NCBI GenBank assembly: GCA_902527765.1
Contig: CABZPW010000005.1
Span: 1 to 39,648 of the forward strand
Direction: 5' to 3'
DNA from: Rhodospirillaceae bacterium
Lineage (GTDB): Bacteria > Pseudomonadota > Alphaproteobacteria > TMED109
DNA: 39,648 bases
The notes under the pieces were generated by a model. It was not told the DNA's origin, searched no databases, and saw only the letters and a list, made by a program, of their open reading frames with translations. Shown in pieces: positions 3,935 to 30,216 of this stretch; the stretch's first letter is position 1, and each line of letters begins with the position of its first letter. The position numbers and the translations under genes were made by a program.

Positions 3935-4411
3935 TTATAGTCCTTCACATGACCTTGTTGGTTTACCAAAGAATTTAAGACAATAATCCTTTGAAACTTT
4001 TTGTCCTTGTAAGTCATTAATAATAAAATCTACGACTGCTTCAATTTGTCTCTTATTTAAAAAACTTTTAGCTTGTAGTGGTCTATTTTTATCATCACCT
4101 TCAAAATCAGAAAACTTCATACCAAAACATCTATCATCAACATAAGCTTTTTTATCAAAAAAAGGCATATTTGTGCCAGGTCTACCGCACTCTATTATAG
4201 TAATTAATTGTTCTTTATCAAGACCTGTCTCTCTTAAAGATAAAGCTGCTCCTCCATATCCTGGGCCACCATCACCATGCCATTTATGACATCCCATACA
4301 ATTACCTTTTTTATAAGTAGAAAGCCCGTAGTCAAATTTTGGTGGTTGAGAATAAGCATTATTGTACATTAGAACTAAGAATAGGACTTTTAATATTATA
4401 TTTATTTTCAT
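3935..4411 (-). CDS. Periplasmic mono-haem c-type cytochrome
   Basis: N-terminal signal-like segment and one CMGCH haem motif (codons at 4286-4300). A downstream Met-rich stretch (GTNMPFF, GMKF) could supply the axial Met. Located in the PQQ dehydrogenase cluster. Confidence 0.85.
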   Translation of the reverse strand: MKINIILKVLFLVLMYNNAYSQPPKFDYGLSTYKKGNCMGCHKWHGDGGPGYGGAALSLRETGLDKEQLITIIECGRPGTNMPFFDKKAYVDDRCFGMKFSDFEGDDKNRPLQAKSFLNKRQIEAVVDFIINDLQGQKVSKDYCLKFFGKPTRSCEGL

Positions 4412-4413
4412 GT

Positions 4414-5040
4414 TTATACTTTGTTATTTAATTTAATTTGCAAAAAGGATTTACTTACTAAGTTGTCTCTATTAGATTTATCTCCAACAAAGTAAAACTG
4501 AGACTGAATAGTTATTAATTTATTTTTTACCTGCTTTAGGCATGTGTTATTAACGTATTTTTTTCCTATCTTAATATGATTTTTTTCAGGCGTTCTATTT
4601 GAACATTCCCATCCTTGTGAGCCATATTTAGAATACACTCTAAGCCATAATAAATGAGATTGCTTTCTAAAATAAAATGGTGCTTTTGGATCTGTATTAA
4701 TATTAATTTCTTGCAATATACCGCTTTCATCTACTGCAACATTTATCAATACTGGATGACCTGAAACTTGTGTTCCTTCAAATTCTTCAGTCACTGCAAA
4801 TCTCTCATCATATTCAAATGATATGATATGAAAATCGTTAGAATTTTTTTTACAATTTTTAAAATTTTTCCATTTTAAAATTTCTGTTTTATCTTCACAT
4901 TTTAAATTTACATAACCTCTTTCAGGAATTTCCGTAATGCTTGAACCGACTTTGAAGTCTCTAAGATCTTCAGCATAAGCAGAATTAAAAGAAATGAAAA
5001 ATAAAAGTAAACTATACAGTATTGAAAATATTTTTATCAT
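4414..5040 (-). CDS. Hypothetical exported protein of the PQQ-dehydrogenase cluster
   Basis: Signal peptide MIKIFSILYSLLLFFISFNSAYA. Sits between the PQQ dehydrogenase and cytochrome genes on the same strand. The ORF track starts at TTG 5043; the adjacent ATG at 5040 is the more likely start. Confidence 0.75.
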   Translation of the reverse strand: MIKIFSILYSLLLFFISFNSAYAEDLRDFKVGSSITEIPERGYVNLKCEDKTEILKWKNFKNCKKNSNDFHIISFEYDERFAVTEEFEGTQVSGHPVLINVAVDESGILQEININTDPKAPFYFRKQSHLLWLRVYSKYGSQGWECSNRTPEKNHIKIGKKYVNNTCLKQVKNKLITIQSQFYFVGDKSNRDNLVSKSFLQIKLNNKV

Positions 5041-5049
5041 CAAAAAAAA

Positions 5050-5089: not shown

Positions 5090-6841
5090 TTATAGACCAA
5101 ACACATAAAGAGTTTGACCAGGCTGAACTTTTTCTAAACCTGGGGTTGAACCTACAAACCATTTAGGCCAAGCTCCACCTAATCCTGCAAGAATAGCAAC
5201 GTATTGCTTACCACCTGCTTCAAAGGTAATTGGAGGAGCATTAACTCCTGTATTAGTTTCAAATGCCCATAACTCTTTTAGGTTATCAGAATCTAATGCT
5301 ACAATTGTTCCATCAGGATGAGATGAGAAAACCAAACCACCTTTAGTAGCTACTAAGCCACCTAATTGAGGATAATCCATATCATACTTAGCAACAACTT
5401 TACCAGAGTTTACATCCATAGCTGTAACACTACCAGTTATTTGTGGTCCCATTTTAGGCCCGCCACCTAACCAGAATTCTCTAGCAACCCATTCTTTTTC
5501 TTGAGGAACATTCACGTGCATAGCACAGCTCTCAATAACCGGAATGTAGTACATATTTCTGTCCGGATCGTATGCGGTTGGAGGCCAGTTCTTTCCTCCC
5601 ATGTTACCTGGACATGATGTTGCTTCTGGCTGCGCTCTAAATGCACTTGAAGAAGGAACATATCTTTGAACATCCTTGTTAGGATCATAATCTAAAGGTC
5701 TTCCTGTATACTTATCTAAGCCAGCTGTCCAGTCAAGTTTTTTAACAAAAGGTGTTCCCCATAAAAACTTTCCTGATTCTCTGTCAAGAGCATAAGCAAA
5801 ACCATTTCTATCCGCATGCAAAACAGCTTTGGTTTTCTTTCCAAAAATTTTTGCATCTACTAATGTTTGCTCATTTACTCCATCAAAATCATAAGGATCG
5901 TTTGGCGTATATTGGAAATACCATTTTATTTTTCCAGAATCTGCATCTAAAGCTAAGACACTATTACTGTAAAGATTATCACCTGGACGATATTCATTAT
6001 CCCAGTCAGGACCAGGGTTACCAACACCCCAATAAATAACATCTAAGTCAGGATCGTAGGAACCTACAACCCAAGTTGATCCACCACCGTGCATCCAAGC
6101 ATCCTTACTATGTGCTTCAGGACCTTGTTTCCATGTATCTCCTCCAGGCTCATCTGGTGCAGGAATAGTGTAGGTTCTCCAATTCTTAGAACCGTCAGCT
6201 AAATTAGTAGAATGTAACCATCCTCTAATTCCATACTCAGCTCCCGCTACTCCGGTAATAGCAGAGTTTTTTACAACTAATGGAGCAGCAGTTATAACTT
6301 CAGCAATACTTGCATCAGCTAATTGTACTTCTTGCTCAATTTCACCTGAGTCTTTATTTGTAACAATTAATCTTCCATCAAGAGTGTGTGAAACTACTTT
6401 GTTATCTATAAGAGCTACACCTCTATTATTAATTCCACAACAAGTTACAGCACCAGGAAAATCATGATCAGTATCTGGATTCATTTTCCAAACTAATTTT
6501 CCATTTTTAGTGGCATCAAACTTATAAACTGATCCCCAACCATCTGTAACATACATAAAACCATCTTCAACAATTGGTGTGCCTTCTAATCCAGCGTGAT
6601 CCCATATTCCACCGCCTTCAATTCCACCAATCATTGCAGTCCATGCAACTTTGAGCTTTTTGACGTTCTTTTTATTTATATCATCTAACCCCGAAAATCT
6701 ATGACCATCAAGTGAACCATGATGAGTCAACCAATTTTGAGGTGCTTTTTTTGCATTTAATATATCATCCCAGCTAGTATTAGCGAATGTGTTGAATGAA
6801 AATACTAAAGCAAAAATAGTAGTAATTATATACTTTATCAT
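5090..6841 (-). CDS. PQQ-dependent alcohol dehydrogenase (quinoprotein, probably lanthanide-dependent)
   Basis: Signal peptide, eight-bladed propeller W motifs, vicinal-disulfide TCCGINNRG (CC codons about 6437-6442), RPGDNLYSNSVLALDADSGKIKWYFQYTPNDPYDFDGVNE. Strong SD GGGAGG before ATG. Confidence 0.95.
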   Translation of the reverse strand: MIKYIITTIFALVFSFNTFANTSWDDILNAKKAPQNWLTHHGSLDGHRFSGLDDINKKNVKKLKVAWTAMIGGIEGGGIWDHAGLEGTPIVEDGFMYVTDGWGSVYKFDATKNGKLVWKMNPDTDHDFPGAVTCCGINNRGVALIDNKVVSHTLDGRLIVTNKDSGEIEQEVQLADASIAEVITAAPLVVKNSAITGVAGAEYGIRGWLHSTNLADGSKNWRTYTIPAPDEPGGDTWKQGPEAHSKDAWMHGGGSTWVVGSYDPDLDVIYWGVGNPGPDWDNEYRPGDNLYSNSVLALDADSGKIKWYFQYTPNDPYDFDGVNEQTLVDAKIFGKKTKAVLHADRNGFAYALDRESGKFLWGTPFVKKLDWTAGLDKYTGRPLDYDPNKDVQRYVPSSSAFRAQPEATSCPGNMGGKNWPPTAYDPDRNMYYIPVIESCAMHVNVPQEKEWVAREFWLGGGPKMGPQITGSVTAMDVNSGKVVAKYDMDYPQLGGLVATKGGLVFSSHPDGTIVALDSDNLKELWAFETNTGVNAPPITFEAGGKQYVAILAGLGGAWPKWFVGSTPGLEKVQPGQTLYVFGL

Positions 6842-7008: not shown

Positions 7009-7650
7009 TTGGAAAATAATGGCTTATCAAACGAAAATGACGTTGTATTTCGAGATGTAATACTATTAGCGTTAACAGGCTTTATTTCAATGGTGATTCT
7101 TTTAATACCTTTTGTTAACCCTCCCACAGAGGAAGAATCATCTTCTACTCCTCCAGGTAATGTTATAGTAGAGCTCTTTTGGGATGATAAAAGAGATGTG
7201 GATATAGACTTATGGGTGCAAGCTCCTGATGACATACCGGTAGGTTATTCAAATAAAGGTGGATTATTTTTCAACCTACTTAGGGATGATTTAGGTATTT
7301 ATAAAGATAATTCTCCTGTTAATTATGAGGTTTCATATTCTAGAGGAATTAGTGATGGAGTTTACATTGCAAATGTGCACCTTTATAGAGAAGATAAAGC
7401 TCCTTTTCAACCTATAATTGCAGAATTATTAGTTTCAGTTGTTGACCCTGATTCTAATAAAAGAAAGCAGATTCTCAGAACTTCAAAAAAGCTCGAAGAA
7501 ATAGGAAAGGAAATTACTGTTTTTCAATTTGAACTGGACAAGAAGGGAAAACTAAATAAAAACTCTATAAATAATAAATATGTGATGCTTAGATCAGGTA
7601 ATAAGGATTCTGTTGATTTAATAAACAATGACGAACTTTCAAATAATTAA
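7009..7650 (+). CDS. ExbD/TolR-like membrane protein with 'DIDLWV' periplasmic domain (paralog 1)
   Basis: TTG start with GGGAG SD at 6998-7002. Single N-terminal TM 'FRDVILLALTGFISMVILLIPF' recalls the ExbD/TolR Asp-containing TM. The C-terminal domain aligns throughout with ORF 8284-8895. Confidence 0.8.
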   Translation: MENNGLSNENDVVFRDVILLALTGFISMVILLIPFVNPPTEEESSSTPPGNVIVELFWDDKRDVDIDLWVQAPDDIPVGYSNKGGLFFNLLRDDLGIYKDNSPVNYEVSYSRGISDGVYIANVHLYREDKAPFQPIIAELLVSVVDPDSNKRKQILRTSKKLEEIGKEITVFQFELDKKGKLNKNSINNKYVMLRSGNKDSVDLINNDELSNN

Positions 7651-7665
7651 AATAAAGGAATAATA

Positions 7666-8283
7666 ATGCAATACAAATATCTATTAATATTAAGATACTC
7701 TCTGATAAATTTAGTAGGTTTGATTTTTTTGTTTGTCTTAATAACTCAGGGCTATGTCACTAAAGCAATAAAAGCTGATATAACCAATATGGTCATAGTA
7801 ATATTAACATTGTTTGCTGTAGGTTTTGTATTGGCGGCATATAGAACTTTTTGGCTTAGCAGAGAACTAAATTACACATTTTTTAAAATTTTACCTAATC
7901 ATTCTCTGGCAAAAGAGTTTTTGCAAAGCTCGAAAAAACTTGATGCAAGCTCAAGAAATAATTTAGCTGCTTCACTAAGAATTAAACTTAGCTCTAAAAT
8001 TAATTACATAAAGTTTATGGCCAACACTTTGGTAATATTAGGATTAATTGGCACTGTTATTGGATTTATTATCGCCCTATCCGGAGTTGATGGAAGTGTT
8101 TCTAGTAACCCTGAGGAAGTAAGCAAAATGGTATCAACTCTAATTCAAGGTATGTCAGTTGCTTTATATACTACTTTGGTAGGGTCAATCTGTAGTGTAT
8201 GGTTAAATATTTGCTATCAAATTATGTCAACAGGCGCTAATAACCTGTTATCTAAAATTATAGATCTAGGAGAAAAAAAATAA
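7666..8283 (+). CDS. MotA/TolQ/ExbB proton-channel family protein
   Basis: Multi-TM protein with ANTLVILGLIGTVIGFIIALSGVDG...MVSTLIQGMSVALYTTLVGSICSVWLN, matching the conserved MotA/TolQ/ExbB TM pair. Confidence 0.85.
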   Translation: MQYKYLLILRYSLINLVGLIFLFVLITQGYVTKAIKADITNMVIVILTLFAVGFVLAAYRTFWLSRELNYTFFKILPNHSLAKEFLQSSKKLDASSRNNLAASLRIKLSSKINYIKFMANTLVILGLIGTVIGFIIALSGVDGSVSSNPEEVSKMVSTLIQGMSVALYTTLVGSICSVWLNICYQIMSTGANNLLSKIIDLGEKK

Positions 8284-8895
8284 ATGCAAGATTCTTTTAA
8301 TGAATTAAAATCTATAGATGACGACCAATCTAATACCGTATTTAGAGACGTAACCTTGTTAGCTTTAAGTGGTTTTGTAGCTATAGTTTTGTTACTTTTA
8401 CCTTGGCTAAACCTGAAAACTAAACAAGAAACCATTAAAGAACCTGTTGGCAGTGTAATTATTGAATTATTTTGGCCAAACGATATCGATGCTGACTTAG
8501 ATTTATGGGTAAAAGGACCAAACGATGGACCCGTAGGATACTCCAAACCATCAGGAATGGTTTTTAATTTACTTCGAGATGATAGAGGATTAACAGGAGA
8601 CTACACTCCTCTAAATTATGAAATAAGTTTTACAAGAGGAATAACACCTGGAGAATATCAAGCCAATGTTCACTTATTTAAACATGATGCAAAAAGATCG
8701 AAAGTACAGGCTACAGTCTCAGCTAGTTTAGTTACACCTGATAGAGACTACAGAAAACAAATATTAGAAAAAAGAATTTATTTAACTAAAGAAGGAAAAG
8801 AAAAAACAGTTTTAAGATTTAAACTTGATAATAATTTTAAACTAGTTTCAGGCTCAGTTAATAGTTTAAGAAAAAGTTTAATAGGAGGATTATAA
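8284..8895 (+). CDS. ExbD/TolR-like membrane protein with 'DLDLWV' periplasmic domain (paralog 2)
   Basis: TM 'FRDVTLLALSGFVAIVLLLLPW', then VIIELFWPNDIDADLDLWVKGPNDGPVGYS...FNLLRDDRG, paralogous to 7009-7650. Start ATG abuts the upstream stop. Confidence 0.82.
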   Translation: MQDSFNELKSIDDDQSNTVFRDVTLLALSGFVAIVLLLLPWLNLKTKQETIKEPVGSVIIELFWPNDIDADLDLWVKGPNDGPVGYSKPSGMVFNLLRDDRGLTGDYTPLNYEISFTRGITPGEYQANVHLFKHDAKRSKVQATVSASLVTPDRDYRKQILEKRIYLTKEGKEKTVLRFKLDNNFKLVSGSVNSLRKSLIGGL

Positions 8896-9443
8896 TGGAC
8901 ATACTTAATTGGTTTTTTAGCCTTTTGACAATATTAATATCTTTTATTATTGCACTATCAATATGGTCCAGAAAAAAAGTAAGGTATAAAGTTTTATCTA
9001 TAACAATTGGTATTTTTGCTTATTTTATTAGCTATGCAACCTTATTAGAAATATTAAGCAGACCTAAGCCAAAAAATTTAGAATTACTGAATAAGTATGC
9101 TAATGAACTAACACTACTACATGTTAATTGGGTTGAAGGAGAAGCAATATATTTGTTAGTACAACTAGATGATATAATTGAGCCAAGACTCTATAAATTT
9201 CCCTGGAACGCATCTCAAGCTCAAGAATATGATGAAATGTTGGAAAAAGGAAGAGAGAATGGAGAAGAAGTAAAGATAGCTAACCCTTTTTATCCAACTA
9301 ATGCCGAAGAGAGAAAAACTATTATTTATACCGCACCAGCAAAACCATTACCTCCAAAAGAAGCACCTGAAACTGGTATTACCTCTTATGATCCTAATGT
9401 GGAAGAAAAGCTTTTAGATTACAGAGATAAAAGAGAAAATTAA
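8895..9443 (+). CDS. Hypothetical membrane protein of the ExbB/ExbD-like cassette
   Basis: Start ATG overlaps the upstream TAA by 1 nt. Two predicted TM helices, then a charged C-terminal domain (HVNWVEGEAIYLLVQLDDIIEPRLYKFPW). Confidence 0.75.
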   Translation: MDILNWFFSLLTILISFIIALSIWSRKKVRYKVLSITIGIFAYFISYATLLEILSRPKPKNLELLNKYANELTLLHVNWVEGEAIYLLVQLDDIIEPRLYKFPWNASQAQEYDEMLEKGRENGEEVKIANPFYPTNAEERKTIIYTAPAKPLPPKEAPETGITSYDPNVEEKLLDYRDKREN

Positions 9444-9478: not shown

Positions 9479-10405
9479 ATGAAGAAAAATTTTATTCAAA
9501 TAAAAAAAGTAAGTAAAATTTATAAAAATAAGTTTGCGGCTTTAAAAAATGTTGATTTAAATATTCAAGAGGGAGAAATTTTTGCACTTTTGGGTCCAAA
9601 TGGAGCTGGAAAATCAACTTTAATAAATGTGTTATGTGGTATTACCTATCACTCAAAAGGAGATATATTTATAGATGGCATAGACCTTACTAAAAATAGA
9701 AAAAAAATAAAATCTCTAATAGGTTTGGTACCCCAAGAACTTCATCTTGAAGCATTTGAAACGGTTTTTGATAACGTAAACTATTCAAGGGGATTGTGGG
9801 GTAAAAAGAAAGATAATAATTACATCTTAAATTTACTTAAAAAACTAAATCTAGATGATAAAAAAAACAATTTATTAATGCAATTATCAGGAGGAATGAA
9901 GAGAAGAGTATTAATTGCAAAGGCACTTTCGCATAATCCAAGAATATTATTTTTAGATGAACCTTCAGCAGGTGTAGACATTGAATTAAGGAAAGAGATG
10001 TGGGATATAATTTATACACTAAAAAAAGAAGGAGTTACAATTATACTAACTACACATTATATAGAAGAAGCTGAAGAAATAGCAGATAGAGTGGCTTTTA
10101 TTAATAATGGTGAAATCATTTTAGTTGAAGACAAAAACGTATTATTGAATAAATTAGGGAATAATAAACTGGTATTTACTTTGGATAATAGCTTTAAAAA
10201 AGTTCCAGCTGTTCTAAATAAGTATTCGTACAAAATTAGTAAAAATAAAAGTTGTATTGAATTTTTTTTAAGCAAAGAAAAAAATGAAGTTAGTGATATC
10301 TTATTAAGTATAAAAAAAAGTAAAATGGATTATTTAGATTTTAATATAGAAAAAAGATCTTTAGAAAGTATTTTCGTGGATTTTATTAAAAAAGAAAAAA
10401 AATGA
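9479..10405 (+). CDS. ABC transporter ATP-binding protein (ABC-2 type exporter)
   Basis: Walker A GPNGAGKST, signature LSGGMKRR, Walker B ILFLDEPSAGVD, H-loop TTHYIEEAEE. Confidence 0.95.
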   Translation: MKKNFIQIKKVSKIYKNKFAALKNVDLNIQEGEIFALLGPNGAGKSTLINVLCGITYHSKGDIFIDGIDLTKNRKKIKSLIGLVPQELHLEAFETVFDNVNYSRGLWGKKKDNNYILNLLKKLNLDDKKNNLLMQLSGGMKRRVLIAKALSHNPRILFLDEPSAGVDIELRKEMWDIIYTLKKEGVTIILTTHYIEEAEEIADRVAFINNGEIILVEDKNVLLNKLGNNKLVFTLDNSFKKVPAVLNKYSYKISKNKSCIEFFLSKEKNEVSDILLSIKKSKMDYLDFNIEKRSLESIFVDFIKKEKK

Positions 10406-11166
10406 TTAATTTATTGGCAGTTAAAGCAATTTATTTTCATGAAATGAACAGAACTAGAAGAACTATTCTTCAAAGTATAATATCTCCCATTCTAAGTACT
10501 TCATTATATTTTATAATATTTGGCTCTGCTATTGGCTCAAGAATAAAAGAAATTGATGGTGTTACTTATGGAATGTTTATAGTTCCAGGTTTACTTATGT
10601 TAAACTTATTAACACAAAGTGTATCTAACGGTTCATTTAGTACCTATTTTCCTAAATTTAATGGTACTATTTTTGAATTACAAGCTGCTCCTATTAGTGG
10701 TGTAGAGATGATTATTGGTTTCGTAGGTGCCACTGCTACGAAATCTATTATATTAGGCCTATTAATTATCGCAACTGCTTCATTTTTTATTGACCTTAAT
10801 ATATTACATCCTTTTTTGATGGTATTTTTCTTATTAATGACAGCTATAACTTTTAGTTTATTTGGTTTTGTTATAGGTCTTTGGGCAGATAATTTTGAAA
10901 AATTGTCACTAATACCTTTAATTGTTATAACCCCGCTTGTATTCTTAGGAGGTAGTTTTTACTCTATAAACATGTTACCAGAAATTTGGCAAAAAATTTC
11001 TTTACTTAATCCAGTTTTGTATTTGGTAAGTGGTTTTAAATATAGTTTTTATGAAATTTCAGATGTAAGTATATGGACTAGTATTATTACAATTTTACTT
11101 ATTTTGTTAATTTTAATAGTGATTACTTTATTAATATTTAAAAAAGGCTACAATTTAAGAAATTAA
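10402..11166 (+). CDS. ABC-2 type transporter permease
   Basis: Six-TM ABC-2 protein, overlaps the ATPase gene by 4 nt. PGLLMLNLLTQSVSNGSF and PLVFLGGSFYSINMLP motifs. Confidence 0.93.
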   Translation: MINLLAVKAIYFHEMNRTRRTILQSIISPILSTSLYFIIFGSAIGSRIKEIDGVTYGMFIVPGLLMLNLLTQSVSNGSFSTYFPKFNGTIFELQAAPISGVEMIIGFVGATATKSIILGLLIIATASFFIDLNILHPFLMVFFLLMTAITFSLFGFVIGLWADNFEKLSLIPLIVITPLVFLGGSFYSINMLPEIWQKISLLNPVLYLVSGFKYSFYEISDVSIWTSIITILLILLILIVITLLIFKKGYNLRN

Positions 11167-23394: not shown

Positions 23395-25623
23395 TTAAGC
23401 TTTTTTTCTTATAGCAACTAGTGGCGGGCATTTAGTATAATCATTATACATCACTTGACAGTCTAAGCAGCCTAAACACTCGTTCATATTGATTTTTCCT
23501 GAATTTAAAATAGCTCCAGTAGGACATACTTTGTTACAAGCTTTACATGGATTACCACATTCTTGCCTTCTTTTTAAAAAATTCATAATCCTAACATTTC
23601 CTAAAACCGCCAAGCCTGCACCTAGTGGACACAGATATCTACAGTAAGCTCTTTCAATAAACAAATTAATTATTAACAAAAACACTGCCCACATTACAAT
23701 ATTTATTGGTGCCATAAATCTTAATGTTATTGCTGTTTTGAAAGGTTCAATATTATAGAGATACTTAGTTAAGTTAGATTCTATAATGGTACCTATGATA
23801 ATAACTGCTAGTAAAAAATATTTTAAATATCTAATATTTTTATCTAAATAATTTGGTAAAGATATTTGACGTATTCCAATTTTCTTTGAAAGAACAGATA
23901 ATAATTCTTGTAACGCTCCAAAAGGACACAACCATCCACAAAATAATGCCCTGCCCCATATAAAAAAGGATATTATAGTAAAAATACCTACTAATAATAT
24001 CATTGGTTCCGCTAAAAAGGCAGAAAAGTTATTATTAGAACTAACAATTATTTCAAAAAAATTTATTAAATGAATAACACTTAACTGGCCACCAATTATC
24101 CAACCTAACCATACTAATATGCAAGTTAAAAAACAAATTCTAAAATATAAGAAAATATTTCTATTTTTAGTTAATACATTATTGAAGATTAAGGCTAAAG
24201 CTGCTATTGAAATTGTTAATAAAAGTAAAATAATATTCGTGATATTATTTGACCAAACAATATTGAAGCTATTATTAGCGTTAGAGGAATCTACATTATT
24301 TTCATTAAAACTTTTCAAATAATATTTTTCAGGTAGTTGGTATAACAAGTTAAAAGTAACTTTTTCATTTTGGCTATTATTAAATTTATATATAAGCTCA
24401 ACGGGTAATTGAGGATTAATTTTATATTTTGCACTTAAATATATTAGACCCTGTCCTTGAATGATTGGAGCTCCTTTTGCATGATTAAAAGGTAACTCTT
24501 TAAATAGATCTTTAGTAATTATTATTTCTTTATCATTTTGTTTTAATATTAAATTTTCTTTTTCTATAACTTTACTAATTCTATCTTCAAGGTTTCTCCA
24601 TATATCCCCTGTAAAAGCTATATAATATACTTGATCGTCAACATTACGACCTGCAGAAATATATTGATCAAACCATCTTCTACCTAAGATATTTGTTCCA
24701 ATACCTGCAGGAGAAACATTTGCTATTAAATAATCAGTAAATAGATCATTGTCTTTTTTAAACTTTATAGATCTTGGTGCTTCAATATTAGAGTTTTTAA
24801 AGGTCTCATTTAATAAACCAATATCTATTTTAAAGGTAGATAAACTTTTATCATCAATCAATGCATTCCATTTTTGAGGCTTATATTGCTCCAAATCTAC
24901 AAAGTTTCCAATATCATTACTATCTAAAATAATTGATTTCTGCCTTGCAATTTTTCTAGCACCTCTCATTATTGCGTCCATAAATAGTAAAGATGATGTT
25001 GTAGTTCTTGAAACACCATCAATTTGTGTTAAGTTGTCAACTTCACCAGCAGTTTCTCTCATGGCTATATTATCACCTTCAATATCTGCCCCAGTTAATT
25101 CTAATGTAAGTGATATACCTGACTTAAGGTCTATATCTTTATATTGCTTTAGATAATCAATAAAATCTTGATCAGTTCTACCTAGAATAGCTATTGGTTC
25201 AACGTGCTTGAGAAGCTTTACTCCTCTCAAAACTCCATTAAAGTCAACTCCTACAGCTAAATTAAATGGTCTCCTCGAATAACCCAAGCCCCTAGTTACA
25301 TCAAAGGTTTCAAATATAAAGCCTATTTCTTCACTTTCATTAAAAATAGGTATCGAAAGAGTTTTTTCATCAACTTCACCAAACCTAGTAGCTTCAGGAA
25401 AAATACTTTTTACTAATTCTAAATTTATATATTTTAAAATTACTAAATCTTTAATATCTACTTCTTTTGTAACTAAATCCTCTTCCCTTAATTTTTCTTT
25501 CTTATTAGATTTTTTTAAGAGTGTGGGGCCTTCATTACTCTCCACAGCTTTTACTGTAAAACAAATAAATAGAATTAAACCTAAAAGAAATTTACATAAA
25601 TAAGGAATATTAATTCTCAACAT
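23395..25623 (-). CDS. NosR/NirI-like membrane FMN-binding, 4Fe-4S protein (copy 1)
   Basis: Periplasmic FMN-binding domain with flavinylation-like DGVSRTTTSSLLF, FCGWLCPFGALQE and YCRYLCPLGAG, and C-terminal 2x4Fe-4S (CGNPCKACNKVCP; CLGCLDC). Confidence 0.9.
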   Translation of the reverse strand: MLRINIPYLCKFLLGLILFICFTVKAVESNEGPTLLKKSNKKEKLREEDLVTKEVDIKDLVILKYINLELVKSIFPEATRFGEVDEKTLSIPIFNESEEIGFIFETFDVTRGLGYSRRPFNLAVGVDFNGVLRGVKLLKHVEPIAILGRTDQDFIDYLKQYKDIDLKSGISLTLELTGADIEGDNIAMRETAGEVDNLTQIDGVSRTTTSSLLFMDAIMRGARKIARQKSIILDSNDIGNFVDLEQYKPQKWNALIDDKSLSTFKIDIGLLNETFKNSNIEAPRSIKFKKDNDLFTDYLIANVSPAGIGTNILGRRWFDQYISAGRNVDDQVYYIAFTGDIWRNLEDRISKVIEKENLILKQNDKEIIITKDLFKELPFNHAKGAPIIQGQGLIYLSAKYKINPQLPVELIYKFNNSQNEKVTFNLLYQLPEKYYLKSFNENNVDSSNANNSFNIVWSNNITNIILLLLTISIAALALIFNNVLTKNRNIFLYFRICFLTCILVWLGWIIGGQLSVIHLINFFEIIVSSNNNFSAFLAEPMILLVGIFTIISFFIWGRALFCGWLCPFGALQELLSVLSKKIGIRQISLPNYLDKNIRYLKYFLLAVIIIGTIIESNLTKYLYNIEPFKTAITLRFMAPINIVMWAVFLLIINLFIERAYCRYLCPLGAGLAVLGNVRIMNFLKRRQECGNPCKACNKVCPTGAILNSGKINMNECLGCLDCQVMYNDYTKCPPLVAIRKKA

Positions 25624-27963: not shown

Positions 27964-30216
27964 ATGATTACAAGAATTCTAGTAACTTTAATTATTATAA
28001 TCGTTATTTTTGCGAATCCTTTCAATTTAAGTTCAAATGAAAGTATTGATGTAAAAGAAGAAAGTCTTACAAATAAATATATTAATAGCTTAAGAGAGGG
28101 TAAATGGGGGGCCTCAGATCCAAGTTGGGTAAAAAAAGAAGTAGCAAAGGAGTTTTTCCCAAAAGTAACGAAATTAGGGAGATTAGAGGGAGACCCTCCA
28201 ACAGTAAGCGTTTTTAGTAAAGGAGAATTAGTAGGTTACTTATTTGTTACTAAAGACATAACATCCTCTAAAGGTTATGCATCATTAACCTTTGATATGC
28301 TAGTAGGTTTAAGACTTGATGGTAAGTTAGCTGGAGCTAAAGTATTAGATCATCAAGAACCTATAATAGGTATGTACACACCAGATGGTCAATTAATATT
28401 ACCAAAATTTACTAGTCAATACAAAGATTTAGATATAAGAGTTCCTACCAAAGTTAATTTACTAAGGACTGAAGGTGAAGGGTCAATAGATGGAATTTCT
28501 TCAGCAACTGTCAGTGCTGTTTTATTTAATGGAGCTATTCTAAGAGCTGCAAGAATAGTAGCTTTATCTAAAGGTTTAAGATTAAATGATAAACCAGTAG
28601 TAGATATAGTAAATTTTGAAAAAAAAAAATTTTATGACTTAGTCTCAGATGGCTCTATTTCTCGTTTAACTTTAAAACTTGAAGATTTAAAAAACTTAGG
28701 TGTGACTAAGCCTAAGATCTCAAATCGTTCAGGAGTTGCTGATATTTATAGATACAAAGCTTTATTTAAAGGAGATACACCTGTAGCGGCAAAACAAAAA
28801 GAAGTAAAAAAAGGTTATAAAGATACTGATAGAAATTTAGCTATTGATTTATATGTTGCACCAGTTGTAACTCCTACTATTGGAAGAAATTTATTAGGTG
28901 ATAAGTGGTATGATATTTTTGTTGCAGGAAGAGATCCTGAAGAAATGTCTATTGTAATTACTACTTTAGGAAGATATGCCTTAGATGGCGAACCAGAAAT
29001 AGCTAGTGGAAACTTTAAAAGATTGGCCGTCATACAAAATAATCAAAGATATCCGATTAAAAAAAGTCAATTTAGAAACTTAGGTTTTTTACATGGAGAA
29101 GATAAACCATTTTTTGCAGAAGCAGGTCTTTACAGAATACCTGCTGGAAATATTAATCCTGTTGAACCATGGAAATTAGAACTTTTAATTGAAAGTGAAA
29201 TACCTAGTGAAAATAAAAAAATCTATCTGGATTATCATTTGAACAATAATTATATCATCCAACCTGATGGATTAAAGAAAATAGCTAATAAAGATGAACC
29301 TATTTGGTATGCTGCATGGGAGAGTCAGAGGAAAAATATTATTATTTTGAGTTTTTCATTATTAATTTTGTCTTTGGCTTTGATAAAAATGGAGAAATTA
29401 ACTTATAATAATAATTTTAGACAAATTTTTAGAAATATTTATTTAATTTGGGTGCTAATTTGGCTCGGGTGGGAAGCTGGAGGTCAAGTAACTGTATTAA
29501 GTATTTTAACTTGGGTAACAGCTCCAATATCTCAACCTTCTTGGAACACCTTACTATCTGATCCGTTATTAATAGTGTTAATGTCTTATGTTATAGTAAC
29601 ATTTTTTGTCTGGGGTAGAGGAGTTTTTTGTGGTTGGTTATGTCCATTTGGTGCCTTACAAGAACTTATTGCTAATATTGGAAAATTTTTAAAAATTAAA
29701 CAAATTAAAATTCCGGAAAAGTATAATAAAGCTAGTTTGAACATAAAGTACATTATTTTATTAACACTATTTGTTACGTGCTTTATTGCACCAAACCTTT
29801 TAAACCTTGGCTCAGAAATAGAGCCCTTCAAAACAGCAATTTCTATGAAGTTTAATAGAGAGTGGTACTATGTTATTTACGCAGTTTTATTACTTGCTAT
29901 AGGGCTATTCATAGAAAGGTTTTTTTGTAGATTTATTTGTCCTTTAGGTGCATTTATGGCTATTGGAGGAAAACTAAGAATATTTAATTCATTTTTAAAA
30001 AGAAGAAATGAGTGTGGTAGCCCTTGTAAATTATGCTCAAACGAATGCCCTATAGATGCAATAGAGAAAAATGGAAAAATAAATATGAATGAATGTTTTT
30101 ATTGCTTAGATTGTCAATCCTTATATTATAACGATCATAAATGTCCTCCTTTAGTAATAGTAAGGAAGAAAAGTGCAAAAATTACTATTGATCAACCAGA
30201 TACAATAAAGGCCTGA
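27964..30216 (+). CDS. NosR/NirI-like membrane FMN-binding, 4Fe-4S protein (copy 2)
   Basis: Paralog of 23395-25623: flavinylation-like DGISSATVSAVLF (28489-28527), FCGWLCPFGALQE, FCRFICPLGAF, CGSPCKLCSNECP, CFYCLDC. Confidence 0.9.
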   Translation: MITRILVTLIIIIVIFANPFNLSSNESIDVKEESLTNKYINSLREGKWGASDPSWVKKEVAKEFFPKVTKLGRLEGDPPTVSVFSKGELVGYLFVTKDITSSKGYASLTFDMLVGLRLDGKLAGAKVLDHQEPIIGMYTPDGQLILPKFTSQYKDLDIRVPTKVNLLRTEGEGSIDGISSATVSAVLFNGAILRAARIVALSKGLRLNDKPVVDIVNFEKKKFYDLVSDGSISRLTLKLEDLKNLGVTKPKISNRSGVADIYRYKALFKGDTPVAAKQKEVKKGYKDTDRNLAIDLYVAPVVTPTIGRNLLGDKWYDIFVAGRDPEEMSIVITTLGRYALDGEPEIASGNFKRLAVIQNNQRYPIKKSQFRNLGFLHGEDKPFFAEAGLYRIPAGNINPVEPWKLELLIESEIPSENKKIYLDYHLNNNYIIQPDGLKKIANKDEPIWYAAWESQRKNIIILSFSLLILSLALIKMEKLTYNNNFRQIFRNIYLIWVLIWLGWEAGGQVTVLSILTWVTAPISQPSWNTLLSDPLLIVLMSYVIVTFFVWGRGVFCGWLCPFGALQELIANIGKFLKIKQIKIPEKYNKASLNIKYIILLTLFVTCFIAPNLLNLGSEIEPFKTAISMKFNREWYYVIYAVLLLAIGLFIERFFCRFICPLGAFMAIGGKLRIFNSFLKRRNECGSPCKLCSNECPIDAIEKNGKINMNECFYCLDCQSLYYNDHKCPPLVIVRKKSAKITIDQPDTIKA

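Follow-up and report, generated by a model that had tools for sequence, protein, structure and literature searches.

Gene organization of the locus

The window, i.e., the whole stretch of 39,648 nucleotides analysed here, carries a cassette of four genes on the forward strand (Table 1). The initial annotation had described one ExbB-like gene placed between two paralogs and followed by the gene of a further membrane protein, ORF4, and both this arrangement and the tight packing, with intergenic distances of 15, 0 and -1 nt, are borne out by the coordinates of the open reading frames. ORF1 starts with a TTG codon, preceded by GGGAGAAAATT. Relatives keep the four genes in collinear order, which excludes a chance arrangement, and purifying selection acts on each of them (pN/pS 0.13-0.17, compared with one congener). 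Co-conservation of the cassette genes, on which the first description had been made to depend, was thus found.

Table 1. Genes of the cassette and of its surroundings in the window.
Feature	Position	Strand	Characteristics
Small c-type cytochrome	3935..4411	-	Likely electron acceptor of the dehydrogenase
209-aa signal-peptide protein	4414..5043	-	Recurs with PQQ-ADH and cytochrome c
PQQ-dependent alcohol dehydrogenase (PQQ-ADH; methanol/ethanol family)	5090..6841	-	Catalytic region YDFDG (Asp at +2)
ORF1 (D1), ExbD-like	7009..7650	+	One N-terminal TM with F-x-D; predicted beta-sandwich DLWV domain
ORF2 (B), ExbB/TolQ/MotA-like channel protein	7666..8283	+	Invariant Thr pair T130/T170 throughout the family
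ORF3 (D2), ORF1 paralog	8284..8895	+	AlphaFold: helix 8-42, eight strands (pLDDT 85)
ORF4, third core component	8895..9443	+	C-terminal LPxK; predicted pair of TM helices with a small alpha/beta domain
ABC-2 type exporter pair (ATPase, permease)	9479..11166	+	Conserved downstream only in near relatives; cassette membership uncertain
Large Fer4_5 protein, like NosR-type membrane proteins	23395..25623	-	Less than 3 kb from the next
Large Fer4_5 protein, like NosR-type membrane proteins	27964..30216	+	

The gene encoding the PQQ-ADH is oriented divergently from the cassette, 167 nt upstream of it, and its product scores 519.7 bits against TIGR03075 (cut-off 480.05). The statement that no tonB, tolA, tolB or ompA-like gene is adjacent was right for the immediate neighbours, but it overlooked this dehydrogenase. 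No gene for a TonB or TolA transducer was found among the neighbouring genes read, which sets the locus apart from ExbB-ExbD and TolQ-TolR systems. Members of the 209-aa periplasmic protein family also lie beside cytochrome c and PQQ-ADH genes in loci of other families (L135, L136 and L164).

The channel subunit and ORF4

ORF2 matches the Pfam family MotA_ExbB (PF01618; E=7.6e-12, 45.5 bits, gathering cut-off 22.9). T130 and T170, a TM2/TM3 threonine pair, are both invariant in 114 of 114 ORF2-family proteins, and the pair presumably corresponds to the ExbB threonines lining the ion path. Family match and threonines are shared with ExbB and TolQ and back the assignment of ORF2 as an ExbB-like channel protein. 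The closest profile match in the PDB was to MotA (8gqy, E=4.7e-6).

No family was found for ORF4 in Pfam and NCBIfam. The predicted model (pLDDT 87) has a pair of TM helices with a small domain. A fold search of the PDB gave no significant match for ORF4, which represents an extra subunit compared with ExbB-ExbD and TolQ-TolR. In one clade (G018 type; L041, L034, L137) two ORF4-like genes go with one D gene, whereas the window has two D genes and one ORF4.

Two ExbD-like partners with a predicted beta domain

ORF1 and ORF3 are about 46-49% identical and have the same layout, sharing F-x-D in the TM segment and the pattern W...DxDLWV...L.RDD.G...D....N.E....R....GEY.VN in the domain that follows. 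Across 135 unique homologs W64, D71, D73, L96, D99, G102, E113, G123 and N128 are invariant, and D100 and D106 (ORF3 numbering) also belong to the conserved acidic residues of the ectodomain. The single N-terminal TM segment with an ExbD-type aspartate, as initially described, holds for the family, since 128 of the 133 members in which this column is filled have the residue; in the other five natural D proteins Val or Ala replaces it. These five (L156, L157, L159, L160 and L135) retain the threonines of the ExbB-like partner, and in the first four a lysine is located a few residues past the lost aspartate; such members may use a different ion or belong to a dead motor.

The likeness to ExbD and TolR consists of the single TM segment, the F-x-D-V/L pattern and the register of the aspartate. 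Alignment of the D family with 20 canonical ExbD/TolR proteins of the same genomes by hhalign returned a sole match of 16 TM columns with Asp on Asp, a weak one without statistical weight (E 0.026, probability 1.9%). The Pfam ExbD profile (PF02472) gave no match at E<=1 for ORF1 and ORF3 and none at E<=0.1 for 27 family members, and both proteins are without a match in NCBIfam. Likewise, Pfam detected no OmpA-like peptidoglycan-binding domain in ORF1, ORF3 or the 27 members, in which the partner differs from MotB and ZorB. Neither ORF3 nor the family profile, used as queries against PDB sequences, yielded anything significant.

In the AlphaFold model of ORF3, built from 27 homologs, one helix is followed after only about 15 residues by an eight-stranded beta domain beginning at residue 57; the alpha/beta periplasmic domain of ExbD and TolR is absent from this all-beta model, a predicted beta-sandwich taking its place. 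The initial proposal of an all-beta periplasmic part unlike ExbD or OmpA agrees with the model and with the Pfam searches. Foldseek found weak beta-sandwich matches in the PDB, none significant, the best being a calcium-bound Bacteroidales protein and then DUF4425 (E 0.02). The suggested kinship with DUF2135/YfaP is weak: the DUF2135 profile (PF09906) weakly matched three of the 27 members (best E-value 0.033), none above the cut-off, and the likeness to this family and to the C-terminal (PPC-type) beta domains of subtilases amounts to the DxDL(W/Y)V..P motif and such weak profile matches. An ordinary ExbD/TolR identity of ORF1 and ORF3 is ruled out by Pfam, NCBIfam and the AlphaFold model. 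Judged from sequence and predicted fold, a D protein is an ExbD-like TM segment on an unrelated ectodomain.

Distribution, conserved core and duplication of the D gene

Of 386 genomes in our alphaproteobacterial sample, 61 carry the cassette family, four of these as weak or partial matches. Named carriers include Tistrella mobilis, Azospirillum halopraeferens, Geminicoccaceae and Kiloniellaceae, and the nearest named relatives of the window are the single-cell genomes AG-919-A04 and AG-422-C09, labelled Rhodospirillaceae. Cassettes also occur on metagenome-assembled contigs labelled Rhodobiaceae, Pseudomonadales and Myxococcota, labels that may be wrong. Genes for the ExbB-like protein, a D protein and ORF4 follow each other directly at 115 of the 132 ExbB-like genes read, gene calls in GC-rich loci being mechanical. 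Canonical ExbD/TolR is also encoded in 23 of 25 cassette genomes, so that the cassette would represent an additional motor; a role as stand-in for an absent canonical ExbD is thereby ruled out.

Most relatives have a single D gene, and the conserved core therefore comprises three genes. The two-ExbD arrangement emphasized in the initial annotation is real in the lineage of the window but does not belong to the core. Within the family of the window, D1 and D2 fall into distinct orthologous groups, and each of the 14 genomes with sufficient sequence has retained both, D1 being the slower-evolving of the two; in about half of these 14 it has been relocated 2.2-3.2 kb from ExbB-D2-ORF4. A locus outside this family (L067, 59% GC) shows the order D-B-D beside a PQQ-ADH, and in the tree one of its copies joins D2 (support 97/95) and the other D1 (90/79). 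The D duplication is thus probably older than the family of the window, which favours two non-redundant roles. With two ancient orthologous groups both retained, a heteromeric D1/D2 pair is plausible, a heterodimer being the simplest reading.

In genomes of the G006/G013 type, a stretch between D1 and the ExbB-like gene (L026, 7764-10141) encodes, by reading of the sequence only, a putative zinc metalloprotease (HELGH), a DsbA-like protein and a TPR protein in conserved order.

Recurrent linkage to PQQ-dependent alcohol dehydrogenases

Clustering of neighbour genes placed the PQQ-ADH in 59 of about 100 loci, some of them redundant. Its position varies: it is divergent and upstream of the cassette in the genus of the window, in G018/G021 and in G056, lies on the opposite strand and three genes downstream in the G006/G013 type, and is directly downstream and convergent in the Rhodobiaceae/Pseudomonadales group. 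Adjacency was observed in eight families (f1, f19, f28, f30, f48, f116, f130 and f151). Among 17 informative genomes, defined as those with exactly one TIGR03075 gene at E<=1e-60, this sole PQQ-ADH adjoins the cassette in 11 (G000, G003, G007, G010, G011, G013, G020, G045, G056, G307 and G396) and is not adjacent in six (G035, G061, where it is about 12 kb away, G158, G237, G277 and G347). A PQQ-ADH occurs in 38 of 61 cassette genomes vs. 66 of 325 others (Fisher p=1.9e-10, uncorrected for kinship), a contrast inflated by related genomes. When the PQQ-linked label is mapped onto a tree of 79 D proteins, it needs 5 changes, compared with about 21 for shuffled labels; at least three of the 5 are forced by well supported branches, and one depends on a dehydrogenase in L047 whose assignment is doubtful.

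Genes of the Ped-type PQQ-ADH systems (TIGR03075, 03861, 03863, 03864 and 03866) share further cassette loci in several families. TIGR03861, TIGR03863 and TIGR03866 all scored above cut-off at L164, which is without an adjacent dehydrogenase. The ABC genes of the window itself fall below the cut-off of TIGR03864. MoxJ-like and pseudoazurin-like neighbours in other families are both below NCBIfam cut-offs. ExbB, TolQ, MotA and proton channels all go unmentioned in a review of the ped cluster (PMC12997753), and our literature search, of incomplete coverage, found no paper linking ExbB-like motors with PQQ dehydrogenases.

At position +2 of the catalytic region the linked dehydrogenases carry Asp in the window type, which we take to be the lanthanide-type signature, and Thr in quinohemoproteins with a C-terminal CxxCH motif. 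By these signatures, the linked enzymes include lanthanide-type and calcium-type members, so that the link would be to quinoprotein alcohol oxidation and not to lanthanides. A lanthanide-specific function is ruled out, as linked dehydrogenases of the Rhodobiaceae/Pseudomonadales group carry DYT and not DxD.

Many GC-rich Alphaproteobacteria have the cassette without a PQQ gene nearby. In the cassette genome G028 (98% complete) neither a PQQ-ADH nor a membrane PQQ dehydrogenase (TIGR03074) nor pqqC was detected, and no PQQ gene lies within about 4 kb of an intact cassette of Azospirillum brasilense Sp7; PQQ-dependent oxidation can therefore not be the only client. On plasmid p1 of the latter strain (NZ_CP012915.1) tblastn finds two D-coding sites, of which the one read is a complete ExbB-D-ORF4 set; PLSDB holds no annotation for the Azospirillum copies.

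A putative ion-driven motor and its client

The products of the four genes apparently make up a membrane motor that is driven by ions, belongs to the ExbB-ExbD/MotA-MotB class and carries a novel kind of periplasmic arm. The DLWV partner, ORF4 and the link to PQQ dehydrogenases are absent from the curated families and papers searched, and we consider the cassette a new variant of this motor. In the proposed inner-membrane machine of the 5:2 class, ORF2 would form a pentameric channel ring around the aspartate-bearing TM helices of the D proteins, a D1/D2 pair in the lineage of the window and a homodimer in most relatives. By analogy with ExbBD and MotAB (PMC12905483), the D domains would be set in motion by ions flowing between ORF2 and the Asp helices. 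The beta-sandwich domains would be moved, together with ORF4, close to the inner membrane, since an arm on a linker of about 15 residues should not reach the outer membrane, where force is unlikely to be exerted without another part. The short linker and the linkage to a periplasmic enzyme system favour a client near the inner membrane. In the lineage of the window the likely client would be the periplasmic system for PQQ-dependent alcohol oxidation whose genes adjoin the cassette.

We give even chances to the proposal that a 5:2-type motor serves the quinoprotein system in this lineage. The step that we would prefer, ion-powered help in maturation of the quinoprotein by loading of PQQ and metal, or in its docking to the cytochrome, is the weakest part and must be called doubtful. 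Taken as a whole, an undescribed branch of 5:2 motors with a beta-sandwich arm, a quinoprotein client served by cofactor loading or docking, and a core pair that is obligately heteromeric in the lineage of the window is a tentative reading, somewhat less probable than the service to quinoproteins as such.

The characterised 5:2 motors that a 2026 review names (PMC12905483) power uptake across the outer membrane, upkeep of the envelope, rotation of flagella, gliding and defence against phages. Coupling of such a motor to a metabolic enzyme of the periplasm would, if confirmed, be a new use of ion-driven force, and the linkage to PQQ-dependent alcohol oxidation hints at what the motor works on. 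A motor of this kind would also be relevant to the way in which quinoproteins in the periplasm acquire PQQ and metal. The presence of the core in culturable Azospirillum and Tistrella makes the motor open to experiment.

The cassette might instead be a general envelope motor with a Tol-like role in the upkeep of peptidoglycan or of structures near the inner membrane, and proximity to the PQQ-ADH may then reflect history or shared regulation. The lone cassettes of many GC-rich Alphaproteobacteria, including the genome without any PQQ system, would fit such a role, but the linkage recurs in eight families, in differing orientations and often with the only PQQ-ADH of the genome, and we regard this reading as rather unlikely. 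Still less probable is TonB-like energising of the uptake of PQQ, metal ions or alcohol across the outer membrane. In genomes of the G006/G013 type, D1 has a TonB-dependent-receptor-like gene in its vicinity (L026, 12549-14390, by reading only), and PedC-like genes of lanthanide-type ABC transporters adjoin other cassettes (for the role of PedA1A2BC see PMC12997753). However, no TonB-like gene was seen among the neighbours, the linker is too short to cross the periplasm, canonical ExbD is encoded elsewhere in the genomes, and both Asp and Thr occur at the metal-type position of the linked dehydrogenases. Moreover, pqqC occurs in 20 of 25 cassette genomes, so that import of PQQ is mostly unneeded and was rejected as the main reason.

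A structural or sensing assembly on the ExbB/ExbD architecture, devoid of ion flow, could accommodate the five natural members in which the aspartate is lost and the threonines are kept, but it is improbable given an aspartate in nearly all D proteins and the threonines in every partner. A Zorya-like phage-defence motor can hardly be considered: ORF2 shows weak local matches to ZorA models, but the best reach 27.9 bits (PADLOC) and 25.3 vs. a cut-off of 100 (NCBIfam), ORF2 is short and without the long ZorA tail, no ZorB, ZorC or ZorD match was found, and the conserved neighbourhood is chromosomal and contains metabolic genes. With scores this far under the cut-offs, and with ZorA plus ZorB plus ZorC/D or ZorE not found together, a Zorya or defence identity was rejected.

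In three families without an adjacent PQQ-ADH (f9, f58 and f120; loci L037, L142, L143 and L152), a conserved DUF3108-like protein with a lipoprotein-like start in several copies is encoded after ORF4 and is a possible alternative client there.
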